In this document: positions 50,584 through 57,500 of the stretch, one piece after another
Layout of the letters: each line of letters opens with the position of its first letter
How positions within the stretch are numbered: position 1 is the stretch's first letter
From: Peristeroidobacter agariperforans
GTDB taxonomy: Bacteria; Pseudomonadota; Gammaproteobacteria; Steroidobacterales; Steroidobacteraceae
DNA: 64,000 bases
Assembly (NCBI RefSeq): GCF_004138335.1
Contig: NZ_RYFW01000001.1
Coordinates: 2,501,244 to 2,565,243 of the forward strand
Direction: 5' to 3'
Position numbers and translations under genes: made by a program
Notes under the pieces: generated by a model
Database searches by the model: none
What the model saw: the letters and a program-made list of their open reading frames with translations, nothing else
What the model was told of the DNA's origin: nothing

Positions 50584-50860
50584 CTCGAGCGCGTTTCTTG
50601 TGAGGAAACAACTGCGCTCATTTATGCCGTTTATCCCTAGCGCAGTTCATCGCAAATGAATGCCTGAACGGAACCACGAACTGCGTGGCTCCTCCAGGGT
50701 TAATTTCTGCGCCATGACCGGTCCACCCCAGTGGAAACCCCTTTTGCATAGCCCGTCGACGACAGGATACAAGTAGGTCGCGATGCATAAGAGTGGTCGG
50801 GCAAGACACGTCGCTTAGGGAATGCTCGTGATCGATCACCAGAGTCATGGGGAAGTCAAG
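50584..50860. other. intergenic region before the ECF sigma operon
   Basis: No supported gene. It contains a small CCACG/CGTGG hairpin near 50671-50685 and should hold the sigma-factor promoter; I could not pick one out. Confidence 0.35.
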
Positions 50861-51448
50861 ATGACCTCGCCTGCGCGCGCTGTCGACGCGCGACGAGAAA
50901 CTGTGGCTTCAGAGACGCCGGAGTCTGTCGATCAGGGCAATTCAAAGAATCGCTTCGCACAGTGGTTCAAGGACTGGCGCAAACCGGTGAGACATTGGCT
51001 GTCCCGGCGCGCCTCGGTCCCCGCCGCTGAGCTGGACGATCTCGCGCAGGAGGTTTTTCTGCGGTTGCTCCGTTACAGCGAGAAGACGGCGGTCGAGAAC
51101 CCGTTGGGATATCTGTTGCGCATTGCGGGCAACGTCGCCAGCGAATGGCGCGAGCGAGCACGGATTTCCAAGCCGCACGATCAGCAATGGCTCGAAGACT
51201 TGCTGATCGAGCCCGATCAGGAACCGGAGAATTCTGTTGGCCAGGCCGGCAGCGATGCGAACGTGCAGGCCGCCGTCGACAAGCTGCCGCCACGGCAACG
51301 TCAGGTTCTTATGTTGCGAGTGAACGAGGGGCTGACCTACAAGCAGATCGCCGAGCGACTCGAGTTGTCGCCACGTGTCGTGCTGCGTGATCTGTCCCGT
51401 GCCTACAGCCAGCTACGGACGCGGCTGGACCCGCAAGACCTCAAGTGA
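50861..51448 (+). CDS. ECF sigma factor (FecI-like)
   Basis: 195 residues from ATG 50861, preferred to ATG 50822 because GGGGA sits seven bases before it. Region 2 has PAAELDDLAQEVFLRLLRY and region 4 LPPRQRQVLMLRVNEGLTYKQIAERLELSPRVVLRDLSRAY. It overlaps the FecR-like gene, whose product should control it, and is followed by a TonB receptor with a signalling domain: the three-part surface-signalling arrangement. It probably drives its own operon and perhaps the peptide/MBL genes beyond. Confidence 0.93.
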   Translation: MTSPARAVDARRETVASETPESVDQGNSKNRFAQWFKDWRKPVRHWLSRRASVPAAELDDLAQEVFLRLLRYSEKTAVENPLGYLLRIAGNVASEWRERARISKPHDQQWLEDLLIEPDQEPENSVGQAGSDANVQAAVDKLPPRQRQVLMLRVNEGLTYKQIAERLELSPRVVLRDLSRAYSQLRTRLDPQDLK

Positions 51449-52548
51449 TGGACACACAAGAGGAACGCAACGTGCCAACAGCAATGGACCGAAAACGCAT
51501 GGTGAGCCAACAAGCTGCCTATTGGTATATCCGCTGCTCCGACGAGCGCTCGATGTCTCGCCACGATCGCAAGCTGCTGCTGGCGTGGCTGAAGCAGTCG
51601 CCCGAGCACGTTGCGGAAATCCTGCGTATTTCCAAGTTGGATGGGAAATGCTGCCGGCAGCGATTGCGCGAGGCGGTCAAAGGGCTCAACGAGTCCAATG
51701 TCGTCGAAGTCGATTTCGGCGGCGCGGCGCAATACGACTATCAGCCCAGCAGGACGGTCAGCGACAAGGTCAAGCGCAAGGAAGGCGCCAAGTTGCCTTG
51801 GAAAGTGGCGGCTGCGGTCGTGACAATGGTTGGGACGGCCTGGCTGGGTGATGCAGTGTTCGATCGTTCCAACGGCGTCTTCGAGACCGTTGCGAGTGAA
51901 TGGAAACACAGGTCGCTCGATGATGGCAGCTCGATTCACCTGGATGCGCGTACGCAGTTGAAGGTCGAGTTCACCGACACGCAGCGCATCGTTTATCTCA
52001 ATCATGGCCAGGCGGCCTTCGATGTGGCCAAAGATTCGCGGCGGCCCTTCATCGTGCGGACGCCGTTGGCCGATATCATTGCTGTGGGCACTCGCTTCAG
52101 TGTCGATATCGATCTGGATGCTGGTGTCACGACGATCGTGGAAGAAGGGGTCGTCAAAGTGATCAAGCACGGCGAGACGGATTCAACTGCTGTGATGCTG
52201 GCTCACAACGAACAGCTGTATGTCGCGCCGCGCGCTGTCGCCGAAACGTCGCTGCCCGTTTCCGAACAGAACAAGGTCTATGTCGATGCCAAGGCCGAAC
52301 TGGAGTGGACCACAGGTTGGGTCCACTTCGACGAAGGCGCCACCGTCCGAGAGATGGTGAAGCAGTTCAATCGCCGCCATGAGGTTCAGGTCAGCATCGT
52401 CGATCCCGCTGTGGCGGAGAAGAAGGTTCGTTATGCCCGCATGCGGATCGATTCAGTCGAAAACTTCAGAGACGCGATGGAAAATCAGAAGGGGGTTGCA
52501 GTGAGCGAAGACCGCGAACATAAGATGCTGCAGCTGCGGTCGGAATGA
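51448..52548 (+). CDS. FecR-family anti-sigma / sigma regulator
   Basis: About 366 residues; ATG 51448 overlaps the sigma stop (TGATG). N-terminal DUF4880-like region (QQAAYWYIRCSDERSMSRHDRKLLLAWLKQSPEHVAEI), one membrane segment around 112-132 (LPWKVAAAVVTMVGTAWLGDAVF), and the periplasmic FecR domain (HRSLDDGSSIHLDARTQLKV, then TPLADIIAVGTRFSVDID). It should relay receptor occupancy across the inner membrane to the sigma factor. Confidence 0.92.
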   Translation: MDTQEERNVPTAMDRKRMVSQQAAYWYIRCSDERSMSRHDRKLLLAWLKQSPEHVAEILRISKLDGKCCRQRLREAVKGLNESNVVEVDFGGAAQYDYQPSRTVSDKVKRKEGAKLPWKVAAAVVTMVGTAWLGDAVFDRSNGVFETVASEWKHRSLDDGSSIHLDARTQLKVEFTDTQRIVYLNHGQAAFDVAKDSRRPFIVRTPLADIIAVGTRFSVDIDLDAGVTTIVEEGVVKVIKHGETDSTAVMLAHNEQLYVAPRAVAETSLPVSEQNKVYVDAKAELEWTTGWVHFDEGATVREMVKQFNRRHEVQVSIVDPAVAEKKVRYARMRIDSVENFRDAMENQKGVAVSEDREHKMLQLRSE

Positions 52549-52554
52549 GCCATC

Positions 52555-55374
52555 GTGGCTCTCAGCCGCTGGCACGTTCCAAGTACGCTGGCCATCGTGC
52601 TTTTGTGCGGATGGGCACCGCTGTTATGGGCTCTGGGCGATTCGACAAGTAATGAATACGAACTAAACATCTCCGCCGGATTGCTCATCGAGGCAATCAA
52701 GCAGTTCTCCCAGCAAACCGACGTTCAATTCACTGTCGACATGCAGGCGACGGAAGTCGATTTCCTGCGCATTCAGGGTTTTCGCGCGCGCCTGTCGGCT
52801 CGCGCTGCGCTCGCAAGGATCTTAGAGGGTAGTGGCCTTGCTACGGAGTGGCAGGGCGATCATACGGTTCGTATCTATCCGGGCATCGTGCGGCCGCAAG
52901 GGGACGGTGGTCAGAAGGAGGTCGAGGTGACGGGCACGCGGCTCGGAGGCGGGGAGGGGCCGGCGCCGATTCGTGTGTACGACCGGGAGGAGATTGATCG
53001 CATGGGCGTCTCCTCGCTGCCCGGCGTGGCGACCTATTTGACTCAGCAGCCGTTTTCATTAGGACCATTCTTTCAGCGAAGCGGAGCTCAGCACTTTCAG
53101 CTGCGCGGGCTGGGAGTGGACACTACGCTGGTGCTCATCAATGGGCGCAGAGCGCAGCCGAGTGCGACCGGCATTAGTCTGAATGCCTTTGACCTGAACA
53201 TGATTCCACTCACAGCAGTGGAGCGGGTCGAAGTCATGTCAGATTCGGCCTCGGCGATTTACGGCTCCGATGCCATCGGCGGTGTCGTTAATATCATTCT
53301 CAAGGAGGCAGGTGCTGCGCCAGATGTTCATCTTCACTACGGGGGTGCGGCTGGGGGAGCCGACGAGCGGCGCATCGCGGGCACCGTGGGCACTTCCGGG
53401 CAACGCTTCAGGTCCTCGCTCACGCTCGATTACTTCGATCGCTCCATGCTCGTGGGTGCAGAGCGTGACATCTGGCATAACCAGGATTACCGGCGCTTTG
53501 GCGGTAGAGACTATCGCACAACTGCGGCGCCGCGAGCCAATGTTTACTCGCTTACCGGTGCACCGCTTCCGGGGTTGCCGACCTCGCAAGCATCGGTGCC
53601 TGTGGGGAGTACGGGTATCGGTCTTCGGCCGGAAGATTTCCTGGCAACAGCTGGAGAGGTCAGTCGCTACACTGCCCGGCAAACCCTGTCTATCGAGCCT
53701 GACCTAAAACAATTGTCCGCCGTCGGCTCGGCCGAACTCTCCCTCGGTAAGCGCTCCGCCATTTTCGGCGAGATGTTGATAAGCGCGAGGGAAGTCGTGA
53801 GCCAAGGCCCCTTATCACCCGTGACGGGGCAGATCGTTCCCGCCGAGAATCCATACAATCCCTTTGGCCAGGCGATCAGAGTGGACTTTTCACTGGCCGG
53901 AACGGAGCCCGCATCACACTTGACGGAAGCGCAGACCACGCGATTCGTGCTTGGGGCTCGCGGCGGTTCAAATCGTTGGAATTGGGAGTTGGCCCTGACC
54001 AGCAGCGACGAGAGTGCCGACGTGATGACCAACGAGCTTGATCTGACGCGTGTTCAGGCGGCATTAGGATCGACCGATCCGAAAACGGCGCTAAATCCGT
54101 TTGCAGATGGTCCTGCGGGGAGCGATGCATTGTTGTCGTCCCTGGCGCGTGATCAAGAATTCGACTACTCCTCGCGGGCGTGGCTGCTCGCAGGATTCCT
54201 GCGGGGCTCGCTGTTTCGCATGCCCGGCGGCATGAGCGAGCTTGTCCTCGGAGGAGAGGTGCGGCGAGAAGAGGTGAAAGCCGTTGACACGTCGCCGCTG
54301 CAGAATGAGCGCGACATCGTTTCTGAATTCGCCGAGCTCAAATTGCCACTACTCAAGCAGCTGGCGCTTAAACTGGCTTTGCGAGCAGACTTCTATGAGC
54401 ACGCAACAGACTCGGTGAACCCGCAGTATGGCCTCGTGTGGCGTCCGACCCAGGACTGGTTGGTGCGGGCCGCCTATGGGACGAGCTTTCGGCCGCCGTC
54501 GTTGGCCGAGCTGTCCTTCCCGAGATTGGAGGGTTTGGTCCCGCTCGCCGACCGTCGGCGCGGCGGCTCGATATCCCAAGTCAGGCTAATATACGGAGGC
54601 AACCCCAACCTTGGAAATGTATCAGCGCATTCCTTCACCACAGGGGTCGCCTATCGAGACAGCGACCGGCCTGGGCTGCATTGGGGAGCTCACTACTGGC
54701 GGGTGGTCATGGACGACCGAGTCTTCACGCCTGCTCTTAATGTGCAGAAACTGGAAGAAGAGGTGCCGGGTCGGGTCACTCGCTCAGCGCCGACGGAAGC
54801 CGACAGGTCCGTTGGCTGGCCTGGTGCAGTTGAATCAGTAGATGCCTCGCTACTTAATTACGGACGACTGGAGACCAGCGGTATCGACCTTGATCTTTCA
54901 TATCGCTTGACGACGAGCCTGGGCCGCCTGCAGTCGTCGCTGTCGGCCACCTGGGTGGATGAGTATTCTGCGAAGGATTTTGCGCCGCTCACGACGCCGG
55001 ATCGCGTCGGCATTGCGAATTATCTGGGCACGATTCCCGAGTGGCGCCTGGTAGGCGCGCTGACCTTGGAAGGGAGTGTCTGGGGCGTTTCCACGACAGC
55101 GACTTTTACGCCTCGCTATCAGGATTCAGATCCGACCGGGCCGCTCGATCGGCGGCTACCATCCCGCACAGTCATCGATTTACAGACGTGGTTGGAAATG
55201 GACCGACTGTTCGGCGCAGCTTGTTTGGAGGGCATGAAGGTCACGGCCGGAGCATTGAACCTCTTCGATGAAGATGTGGATTTTGCGCATGCCGGATTGA
55301 TGTTCGGCTTCGATATATCGCAAGCGGATCTGAAACAGCGATTCGCTTATTTGCGCGTCACCAAGAGCTTTTAA
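52555..55374 (+). CDS. TonB-dependent outer membrane receptor with STN signalling domain
   Basis: 939 residues from GTG 52555. A signal peptide (STLAIVLLCGWAPLLWA) is followed by the STN domain (~35-110: ELNISAGLLIEAIKQFSQQTDVQFTVDM), the plug (VEVTGTRLGGGEGPAPIRVYDREEIDRMG; FQLRGLGVDTTLVLINGRR; RVEVMSDSASAIYGSDAIGGVVNII) and a 22-strand-type barrel ending in ...FAYLRVTKSF with terminal Phe. It is the third gene of the sigma-FecR-receptor operon. The substrate is not shown by the sequence. The lasso-like peptide gene lies just beyond on the other strand, as receptors sit near lasso loci of astexin/benenodin type. Confidence 0.95.
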   Translation: MALSRWHVPSTLAIVLLCGWAPLLWALGDSTSNEYELNISAGLLIEAIKQFSQQTDVQFTVDMQATEVDFLRIQGFRARLSARAALARILEGSGLATEWQGDHTVRIYPGIVRPQGDGGQKEVEVTGTRLGGGEGPAPIRVYDREEIDRMGVSSLPGVATYLTQQPFSLGPFFQRSGAQHFQLRGLGVDTTLVLINGRRAQPSATGISLNAFDLNMIPLTAVERVEVMSDSASAIYGSDAIGGVVNIILKEAGAAPDVHLHYGGAAGGADERRIAGTVGTSGQRFRSSLTLDYFDRSMLVGAERDIWHNQDYRRFGGRDYRTTAAPRANVYSLTGAPLPGLPTSQASVPVGSTGIGLRPEDFLATAGEVSRYTARQTLSIEPDLKQLSAVGSAELSLGKRSAIFGEMLISAREVVSQGPLSPVTGQIVPAENPYNPFGQAIRVDFSLAGTEPASHLTEAQTTRFVLGARGGSNRWNWELALTSSDESADVMTNELDLTRVQAALGSTDPKTALNPFADGPAGSDALLSSLARDQEFDYSSRAWLLAGFLRGSLFRMPGGMSELVLGGEVRREEVKAVDTSPLQNERDIVSEFAELKLPLLKQLALKLALRADFYEHATDSVNPQYGLVWRPTQDWLVRAAYGTSFRPPSLAELSFPRLEGLVPLADRRRGGSISQVRLIYGGNPNLGNVSAHSFTTGVAYRDSDRPGLHWGAHYWRVVMDDRVFTPALNVQKLEEEVPGRVTRSAPTEADRSVGWPGAVESVDASLLNYGRLETSGIDLDLSYRLTTSLGRLQSSLSATWVDEYSAKDFAPLTTPDRVGIANYLGTIPEWRLVGALTLEGSVWGVSTTATFTPRYQDSDPTGPLDRRLPSRTVIDLQTWLEMDRLFGAACLEGMKVTAGALNLFDEDVDFAHAGLMFGFDISQADLKQRFAYLRVTKSF

Positions 55375-55439: not shown

Positions 55440-55592
55440 CTATTCGCTCAGCCAATCAAATGTAAGCGTGCAGCAACTGTCTGGAATCTGAGGGAAGCCA
55501 TTCTGCTTCGTCTCCGCGCTCGCATCACCCAAATCGATCACTTCAATCCCTTGAACCTCCTCGTCCTTCCGCTCTTCTGTTTTCTGTTTCAT
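55440..55592 (-). CDS. 50-residue peptide with lasso-like leader (candidate RiPP precursor)
   Basis: ATG at 55592, stop TAG at 55440-55442, with AAGGA six bases before the start. The product starts MKQKTEERKDEEVQG, followed by IEVIDLGDASAETK and then QNGFPQIPDSCCTL and TFDWLSE. The middle closely resembles the leader end of proteobacterial lasso precursors (benenodin type: IDLGAASVET), where Thr is at -2 of the core. With that register the core would start at Gln and Asp would be residue 9, the position used for the macrolactam; Gln at +1 is unusual, and Gly would be expected. The core also holds a CC pair. Lasso B and C enzymes are not in the window. It converges on the TonB receptor. Gene reality is likely; class is inference. 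Confidence 0.6.
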   Translation of the reverse strand: MKQKTEERKDEEVQGIEVIDLGDASAETKQNGFPQIPDSCCTLTFDWLSE

Positions 55593-55979
55593 GACGGTTC
55601 CTTCAAGGATTTATGACCATCCTCCTGCCCGTCGGTAGATAACGCTTCCTCTTAGTTAACAACAATAAGACAACTTCCGGAGCTCAAAAATAATAGTTTA
55701 CGATCAGTAAAAAGGGGGGTTAAGCTCAATGAGTGGCCCGGTCAACGTGAGCAGAGACCGAGAAGATCATCAGGACCTAGGTGCTTGGTTCGCCCTTGGT
55801 GGTTTGTAGCGGGCCTCATGGATGAGGTCTGCTGCGGATCTTAGAACCAGCGCCGTTTGAGCGTCTGCATTTGCAGCCTTTTTAGGGAGAAAGGGGCTGC
55901 AAAGCTCCTTTGATCCCGTCGCACCGGTCGTGCGATTTCCGATTGCGTTCCCTTCTACAGATACAGACGACGCGCCTCA
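55593..55979. other. AT-rich intergenic region between the MBL gene and the peptide gene
   Basis: No gene supported. A nine-pair stem TTTGCAGCC / GGCTGCAAA (about 55869-55902) may end the MBL transcript. Bases 55650-55725 are unusually AT-rich and may carry the promoter of the peptide gene on the minus strand, but no clear -35/-10 pair was chosen. Confidence 0.45.
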
Positions 55980-57353
55980 TCACGCCGTGAAGCGCCGATA
56001 GCTGCGTCGTGCGATCTTGTATAGCTCCGGCGTTGCCGACTGAAGCGCGGCAAGGAACGTTCGGCGAAGCTTCCGGGAGGAGTCCAGGCGCACTTGGTCG
56101 AGCCATCCGTGGAAGCCAGAGTCTTTGCGGTAGGCGCGAAAGTAGTCATGGAGCTCGCCGACGGTGAAAGCGCGGCCGTTGTCGCCGTACTTGGCGACAT
56201 AGGGAGTGAAATCCGGGTAGAGCGAGCGCACGCCACCGTGCAGAACGGTCTTCGTGAAGTTGGAGATCAGCAGGTCATCGAAGATCTCGTAGTTGATCGC
56301 GGTCATCAGAGAGTGGCGGGGCGCCTCGAAGGTAATGCCACGGCCCTTCGGGCCGCCGAGGTCCACGATGTTGTCCTGGCCGCCGACGCGTACATCGATG
56401 AATTGGAATTTCTGTCGCAGGTGATCGAATTTCTGGAAGTACGCGCGCACCGTTTGCACGTCCTGATGATCGAGCGGTTCCGACCAGTCATCGCCGAACT
56501 CGTTCGGCTCGTGAAAAATCCGGGGTGCAGCCTCCATCGGAGTTTCGGAGATGCAGTCCTTGGTCACATCGTACGAAAAGTATCCTGGAATGAATTCTCC
56601 GCGCTCGCGTTTGAAGCAGGTGCCGTGTGCCTCGATGGGAATCTCATAATCCGATGCCCAGCGCGAATCGGTCCTCGCGAACACGTGGTGGCAGGAAAAT
56701 GGCGCCGTGTGAGTGCCGGACCAGTTCTTCAGCAGCCCGCTGTAGGAGTAGCCGAGCGGCTTTGAGTCGGCGGGCAGCGGTTCTATCCGCTGCCCGTCTT
56801 CGGTGAAGAAGTTCATCATGTCGGCCGTGCCGTTGTTGAAGAGCTTGAGCACGAACCGACGCTTGAACGGTTGCAGACGGGCTTGCAACGTAGCCCGCGT
56901 GCCCAGCGCGGAGCCATCGTTGAGATTCAGGACGGCACACTGGTCTCCCAGCGCGATGAGCAACGCCGCGTCCTGATTCCAATCCGCGCAGCAGAGAATC
57001 CTGACGTGCGGTGAAATTTGCAGCCAAGAATCGTCTGCAAGCTCATGGGCGCGGTAGCCCGCGGCAGTCAGGTCGCGAATGATCCGCCCGCCATGGTGAC
57101 GAGGCACGAGCACAGTCTTGTCGTGGAACTGTGCGAGAGAGTCGAGATTCAGATGATCCGGATGCCCGTGGGACAGCCAGACATGTTGGGTCGCAGCAAA
57201 TGCTTCCGACTGTTCGGGTGTGAAGCGATAAGGAAGCATCCAGGATCCGAAGTACTGCGCCCCCGAGATCCAGGGATCGGTGACGAGCACTGGAATGCCG
57301 CCGTCGTAGACAATCAACGTTGCGTTGCCGCACGTCTCGAATCCGAGGTCCAT
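55980..57353 (-). CDS. metallo-beta-lactamase-fold hydrolase (UlaG/CMAH-like)
   Basis: 457 residues from ATG 57353, with GGAGG five bases before. The MBL motif is VWLSHGHPDHLNLDSL, preceded by GIPVLVTDPWISG. The following half resembles large UlaG- or CMP-Neu5Ac-hydroxylase-like proteins (LNLNDGSALGT, FSYSGLLKNW region, LISNFTKTVL). No Rieske domain is evident at the C-terminus. It lies upstream of the peptide gene on the same strand, 387 bases away, so a joint role in a peptide pathway is possible but unproven; an unrelated hydrolase is the simpler alternative. Confidence 0.85.
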   Translation of the reverse strand: MDLGFETCGNATLIVYDGGIPVLVTDPWISGAQYFGSWMLPYRFTPEQSEAFAATQHVWLSHGHPDHLNLDSLAQFHDKTVLVPRHHGGRIIRDLTAAGYRAHELADDSWLQISPHVRILCCADWNQDAALLIALGDQCAVLNLNDGSALGTRATLQARLQPFKRRFVLKLFNNGTADMMNFFTEDGQRIEPLPADSKPLGYSYSGLLKNWSGTHTAPFSCHHVFARTDSRWASDYEIPIEAHGTCFKRERGEFIPGYFSYDVTKDCISETPMEAAPRIFHEPNEFGDDWSEPLDHQDVQTVRAYFQKFDHLRQKFQFIDVRVGGQDNIVDLGGPKGRGITFEAPRHSLMTAINYEIFDDLLISNFTKTVLHGGVRSLYPDFTPYVAKYGDNGRAFTVGELHDYFRAYRKDSGFHGWLDQVRLDSSRKLRRTFLAALQSATPELYKIARRSYRRFTA

Positions 57354-57500
57354 TGAAGCCTCCGCTCGGCCAGATCGAACCGGTGTCAATGCGGCCAGCT
57401 TCCCTTTTCAGTGACAACCGGGGCGTGGGGCAGCCGTGTGTTCCCTTGATCGCGCCACCGTCCATTTCGATCGCCGCGATATCGCAGTGCCGGAAGTGCG

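Follow-up and report, generated by a model that had tools for sequence, protein, structure and literature searches.

The window, by which we mean the whole 64,000-nucleotide stretch of DNA analysed here (G000:C9:2501244-2565243), comes from the genome (G000) of a soil bacterium, 7.65 Mb in 17 contigs. On its minus strand, an open reading frame at 55440-55592 comprises 50 codons plus a stop codon and translates as MKQKTEERKDEEVQGIEVIDLGDASAETK followed by QNGFPQIPDSCCTLTFDWLSE. A ribosome-binding-like AAGGA is located at 55599-55603 on the same strand, 6 bases before the ATG, and is kept in G001 and G004; together with the translation, it bears out the sequence-only reading, which had proposed a 50-codon minus-strand gene with a strong ribosome site. 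The frame was annotated as a lasso-type precursor gene from its translation, family searches and orthologues. According to an alignment of 21 relatives, the leader covers residues 1-29 (55506-55592, minus strand) and ends in DLGDASAETK (VIDLGDASAETK), with Thr at -2; Thr at -2 and the family-type leader motif are present here as in all 26 precursors read. The putative core QNGFPQIPDSCCTLTFDWLSE (55443-55505, minus strand), which starts at the cleavage site that we infer, has Gln as its first residue, Asp at position 9 and CC at positions 11-12, all as first described. Vicinal CC at 11-12 or 12-13 is seen in three of the four orthologues of the window group. The benenodin/astexin-type leader that had been claimed agrees with two family matches, both below their curated cut-offs: NCBIfam lasso_benenodin (NF033522; E 5.3e-5, 23 bits, cut-off 33) and Pfam Subterisin (PF24178, a lasso family; E 8.9e-6, 26 bits, cut-off 27). 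In the whole genome, NF033522 gave no match over its cut-off. These low family scores weigh against the main reading.

The precursor gene faces a sigma/FecR/TonB operon at 50822-55374 on the plus strand, as had been noticed before, and the two stop codons are 65 bp apart. A TonB receptor and a sigma/anti-sigma pair are therefore present on the strand opposite to the precursor. The operon encodes a FecI-type ECF sigma factor (50822-51448, plus strand; TIGR02937, E 7.6e-22; PF08281), a FecR anti-sigma/sensor protein (51445-52548, plus strand; PF04773, E 9.5e-19) and a TonB-dependent receptor (52555-55374, plus strand; PF00593 and PF07715), the last sharing 42% identity with its counterpart at the A-B-C locus described below. 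The N-terminal STN domain (PF07660) has a weak match in the window receptor (E 0.058) and weak ones elsewhere (E 1.2e-5 at L003, 9.8e-4 at L098 and 0.14 at L096), all below cut-off. No isopeptidase gene was found between precursor and receptor in the window. The MBL-fold gene at 55980-57389 (minus strand) was considered as a tailoring gene and excluded from the parts list, because only in G001 was a homologue seen close to the orthologous precursor; none was recognised there in G004 or G003.

A conserved non-coding element lies at 55733-55854 (plus strand), about 140 bp upstream of the precursor, with which it is associated by place only. It is strongly conserved and occurs in five of the 14 genus genomes. 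A long hairpin is predicted for it on the plus strand (z -2.29; 0.19 for the minus strand), in which one pair has changed on both sides and the overall covariation term is about zero. The element was rejected as a known RNA, its best Rfam match having E 0.044 and 19.5 bits against a cut-off of 38; at gathering scores, Rfam matches in the window were limited to two tRNAs.

Three other Steroidobacter-group genomes have an orthologue of the precursor in the corresponding position (79, 66 and 36% identity), and each orthologue converges on the 3' end of a TonB receptor gene. Within G000, five related precursors were found, i.e., the window gene and those at C9:2577kb, C12:45kb, C9:62kb and C9:1283kb, and all five read DLGDA..ETK and then Q. 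One of them adjoins B and C genes, and the other four stand alone, each facing a TonB receptor. The four paralogues are weak in single-sequence searches (E-values 0.002 to 1.33). The precursor profile was built from the five G000 precursors, whose own E-values in the profile search hold by construction; the paralogues were therefore accepted on the basis of alignment, common gene context and independent matches in other genomes. At C12 (L017:7286-8815), the receptor facing the precursor has only 509 residues and lacks its N-terminal half; given this shortening, the locus may be decaying.

The sequence-only reading found no B or C gene in the window, and whole-genome searches place all those of G000, two B and two C genes, outside it, at L003 and L004. 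L003 (C9:2577kb), an A-B-C lasso locus, carries a precursor with a window-type leader about 20 kb from the window gene, to which B and C maturation genes are thus available without adjoining it. The L003 precursor stands before a fused B gene and a C cyclase gene, convergent with its own FecI-FecR-TonB operon. In the fused B protein, the B2 domain matches NF033537 (E 6e-16) and the PqqD-like part lies below cut-off (E 5.2e-4); the C cyclase matches PF00733 (E 1.3e-18). A sequence search against solved structures gave no match for P0001 or the B protein. Ahead of the FecI-FecR-TonB operon of this locus lie one more FecI-FecR pair and another FecR gene (L003:878-3818), with no receptor of their own in that stretch. 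L004 (G000:C9:2196000-2215900) is a conventional lasso locus with B, C, isopeptidase (Atxe2 family; NF033523, 521 bits), TonB, FecR and FecI genes, and its precursor has a different leader and Gly first. Over the last 13 positions, each of the four stand-alone leaders agrees with that of L003 at 9-11 and with that of L004 at 5-6.

We surveyed 14 genomes of the genus with the precursor profile (E up to 0.1) and with a C query consisting of the first 620 residues of the longest ORF, in which the cyclase part starts near residue 118. Precursor, B and C were each found in the same ten genomes, and none of the three was found at these thresholds in the other four, all of which are fragmented assemblies of 300-840 contigs, a point that counts against the main reading. 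The ten genomes yielded 26 precursors: five each in G000 and G001, four in G004, three each in G003 and G011, two in G007 and one each in G002, G008, G012 and G013. Ten precursors lie beside B, two have C and no B (G004:C7 and G007:C49), and 14 have neither (four each in G000 and G001, two each in G003, G004 and G011). Weak matches retained after reading are G001:C19, G012 and G011:C43. Two contigs, G001:C19 and G011:C246, are short (7.7 and 8.4 kb), so that a B or C may lie past their ends, which also weighs against the main reading, and G011:C43 stops 0.5 kb after its precursor, with further genes possible beyond. Of the 14 A-only precursors, 13 converge on a TonB receptor gene, with stop codons that overlap by 57 bp at one extreme and are 132 bp apart at the other. 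The exception, at G011:C43, lies on the same strand as a FecI-FecR-TonB operon and 280 bp after it, and is counted against the main reading. In G011:C93 (L107), A and B on the plus strand are followed by C-like pieces, one of them interrupted by an internal stop, and a full-length C is present on the opposite strand.

In each of the four genomes in which it was read, the window locus consists of A alone; its order is kept in the three relatives, and the distance to the A-B-C locus precursor is 18-24 kb. A fifth trace, in G007, is cut off by the contig end. The FLPxPVF group occurs in two states: in G004 and G007, A+C face a receptor, an intermediate condition without B, and in G000 and G001 the orthologous receptor is faced by A only. 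Where A+C occur, the genome's B genes were found on other contigs, so that leader removal at least must come from elsewhere if the A+C genes work.

In an order-wide draw of 396 genomes (E up to 0.01), 11 had a match, nine of this genus and two, weak and from another family, that were rejected. Among the weak matches discarded on reading, G002:C1:2389600 lies inside a 269-aa ORF, G278 inside longer ORFs, and the frame in G162:C21 is antisense to a 467-aa ORF, with no lasso or receptor reference match in 19 kb. A phylum-wide search with NF033522 (E up to 1e-4) gave one match each in five of 398 genomes; it tells little, because the source genome itself was missed at that threshold.

The window receptor has 44 matches in its own genome, some of which are two pieces of one gene. 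The best six of the 44 include all five receptors that face precursors, for which the chance is roughly 5.5e-6 if the 44 are treated as separate genes. The closest paralogue (52%) is at C14:91392-94175 (L143), with FecR present. No recognisable precursor was found at this site (G000:C14:91392), which is counted against the main reading; the receptor may have lost its precursor or may have one of another form. In a midpoint-rooted tree of 30 receptors, which excludes that of G011:C43, a branch with 100/100 support separates the 24 precursor-facing receptors and the C14 receptor from the other five, including that of L004. The grouping of the receptors mirrors that of the precursors for the most part: w, c, f and p each form a single group (bootstrap 100), as does i with 80/83 support. 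The receptors of q are split, that of G011 standing apart from the other two. The G001:C19 receptor, labelled 'none' in the tree because its precursor was read only afterwards, groups with the other two q receptors. At G011:C93, no receptor was found in the stretch read.

An alignment of homologues, as the sequence-only reading had proposed, recovered homologues with a conserved leader, and within three genomes the leaders are more alike than the cores: 54, 55 and 62% against 41, 28 and 38% in G000, G001 and G004, respectively. Among orthologues, leaders of groups w, c and f are 67, 80 and 81% alike and cores 41, 58 and 67%; the core figures omit gaps, which flatters the cores, and some starts were cut to a later ATG. 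After the leader end [EV]T[KR], Q follows in 21 of the 26 precursors, E in three, and G and C in one each. Gly is the usual residue at this site in lasso precursors. The core Asp is at position 10 in 20 precursors, at 9 in five and at 8 in one. In 16 of the 26, Asp10 is the sole acid at positions 7-10; four other Asp10 precursors carry a further acidic residue at 7 (Glu in three, Asp in one), with which a 7-residue ring would be possible. The published acceptor position and ring size are 7-9 in the available text of the sources (PMC9266682; PMC11006600); Asp9 of the window core falls within this range, and an Asp10 ring would exceed it. Gln as residue 1 of the window core is outside the experimentally known first residues (Gly, Cys, Ser and Ala, and Asn in metanodin), and is absent from the experimental list as given in the accessible part of PMC12670498, which counts against the main reading.

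If cleavage occurred one residue later, after Gln, the ring would have 8 or 9 residues in 25 of the 26 precursors and 7 in one. This is less favoured, because the residue after the Gln position is of 11 kinds among 25 precursors, including Pro three times, and because Gly and Cys, both known first residues, each stand once exactly where Gln does. Residue 1 of lasso peptides is usually constrained. In the PDC group (L018:9308-9392, L019:9264-9348 and L093 near 9326), the start codon lies within a predicted hairpin (-24.8, -31.4 and -24.7 kcal/mol), suggestive of translational control; both G000 copies have the arms CATGACACT and AGTGTCATG. The cores at these three loci have Cys at 11 and 21, and a tail disulfide is therefore possible.

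Taken together, the region 55440-55592 is, as far as sequence can tell, a real gene that looks like a lasso-type RiPP precursor. Probably, it is a stand-alone lasso precursor with its own receptor operon, matured in trans by the enzymes of the A-B-C locus. The gene and its leader, the orthologues, the dispersed paralogues, the enzyme locus, the receptor pairing and the joint presence or absence with B and C, all read at the sequence level, point this way, and the most likely arrangement would be one of dispersed peptide-receptor modules served by one B/C pair acting in trans. The fused B protein of the A-B-C locus would bind and remove the leader of the window precursor, and the C cyclase would close its core; the same enzymes would act in trans on dispersed precursors with a common leader and differing cores. 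After threading and export, the released product would bind to the adjacent TonB receptor and be either sensed or imported by it, and the receptor may pass a signal on through FecR and FecI. Such signalling is plausible at the window locus; at L018 and L019, uptake without signalling would be equally open, because FecI/FecR were not seen near the receptor, an observation counted against the main reading. A fuller picture, in which each module has its own TonB receptor, one B/C pair serves all, the products are Gln1 lassos with mostly 10-residue rings (Asp9 in the window) and they act as private ligands for self or kin, is tentative and rather doubtful as a whole. As for the earlier suggestions, an orphan precursor matured elsewhere is strongly supported at the sequence level by an A-B-C locus some 20 kb off that has a same-leader precursor and recognised B and C families. 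The leader, the B and C proteins and the receptor are without exception of lasso type, and for this reason we do not favour the other suggestion, a new RiPP class.

Several alternatives bear on the same evidence. The stand-alone precursors could be cut by B and not closed by C, giving linear peptides, perhaps with pyroglutamate, that signal to the receptors. N-terminal Gln can form pyroglutamate, which would block the ring, a point against the main reading. In 24 of 26 precursors, the residue after the leader is Gln or Glu, as pyroglutamate needs, and 14 of 26 loci lack an adjoining C; however, Asp occurs at 8-10 in all 26, as ring closure needs, the A-B-C loci share Gln and Asp and do carry C, and two A-only loci have A+C orthologues, so that we regard linear products as unlikely. 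It is also quite unlikely that the stand-alone genes are remnants of A-B-C loci whose enzymes were lost, kept by chance or for the regulation of the receptor and making no peptide now. Frame, leader and Asp are kept in the three orthologues of the window gene, and eight of the 14 codons changed relative to G001 are synonymous (first 42 codons compared), although C has been lost beside the FLPxPVF precursor in G000 and G001, the G000 receptor at that locus is truncated to 509 residues, and the C12 copy does look weaker than the rest. A third possibility, that another, unrecognised enzyme set makes a different RiPP with a borrowed lasso-like leader, has in its favour that published lasso peptides differ from these in their first residue and, for most members, in the position of the acceptor, but we find it improbable, since the same leader and Gln adjoin genuine B and C genes in five genomes, and the presence of B and C follows that of the precursors over the 14 genomes. 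That the window ORF is a chance open frame is hardly credible: it is short and both its family scores are below curated cut-offs, but four same-leader paralogues in the genome and three orthologues at the same place in relatives, with common gene order, put it beyond chance.

The trans-matured lasso precursor that we favour can be compared with known systems, as far as the available text of each source allows. In leader type, fused B and C, the family resembles the isopeptidase-type proteobacterial lasso clusters (astexin, benenodin, sphingopyxin and sphingocin). The sphingocin leader is LIDLGSVTEETK, followed by G (PMC11006600), and such clusters have a TonB receptor with sigma/anti-sigma genes, as here (PMC9266682). 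In contrast to them, the window gene has no adjoining B, C or isopeptidase gene and has Gln instead of Gly first, and at the Q-type A-B-C loci L003, L094, L099, L103 and L105, C abuts the receptor with no isopeptidase between. Metanodin, a Steroidobacterales lasso peptide, comes from the same taxonomic order and shares an unusual polar first residue (Asn1) and Thr at -2; unlike the window, it has A-B-C and an isopeptidase gene in one cluster, and its ring has nine residues (PMC12670498). According to its report, it was the first with Asn1; a predicted relative with glutamine there is also mentioned by the authors, so that the Gln1 prediction is already in print; the part of that paper available to us contains no stand-alone precursor (PMC12670498). 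The caulosegnins are similar in that one B/C set makes three peptides with 8- and 9-residue rings (PMC13352647), but all their precursors, in the text available, are inside one cluster. Similarly, prochlorosins and synechococsins depend on one promiscuous enzyme (ProcM, SyncM), with precursor genes sometimes scattered genome-wide; they differ in their lanthipeptide chemistry and enzymes, and the accessible text does not describe pairing of precursor and receptor genes (PMC10783134). In the literature searched, in which subscription journals are little covered, we found neither Gln1 as a family rule with Asp10 nor a report of dispersed lasso precursors. As judged from leader, enzymes and receptor, the system is lasso-type, and it differs in its dispersal, its first residue and the acceptor position of most members.

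To our knowledge, lasso mining starts from B and C and seeks precursors adjoining them, and stand-alone precursors are therefore easily missed. Another place to search for them is at the 3' ends of TonB receptor genes that belong to a defined group. If action in trans is true, B and C tolerate cores that differ widely and rings of more than one size, and a Gln1-Asp10 ring, if true, would widen the accepted lasso chemistry. The pairing of one precursor with one receptor provides ready cognate pairs for the role of TonB- and sigma-linked lasso peptides in their producers. Dispersed precursors sharing one set of enzymes, if true, would be a new organisation of the lasso peptide class.
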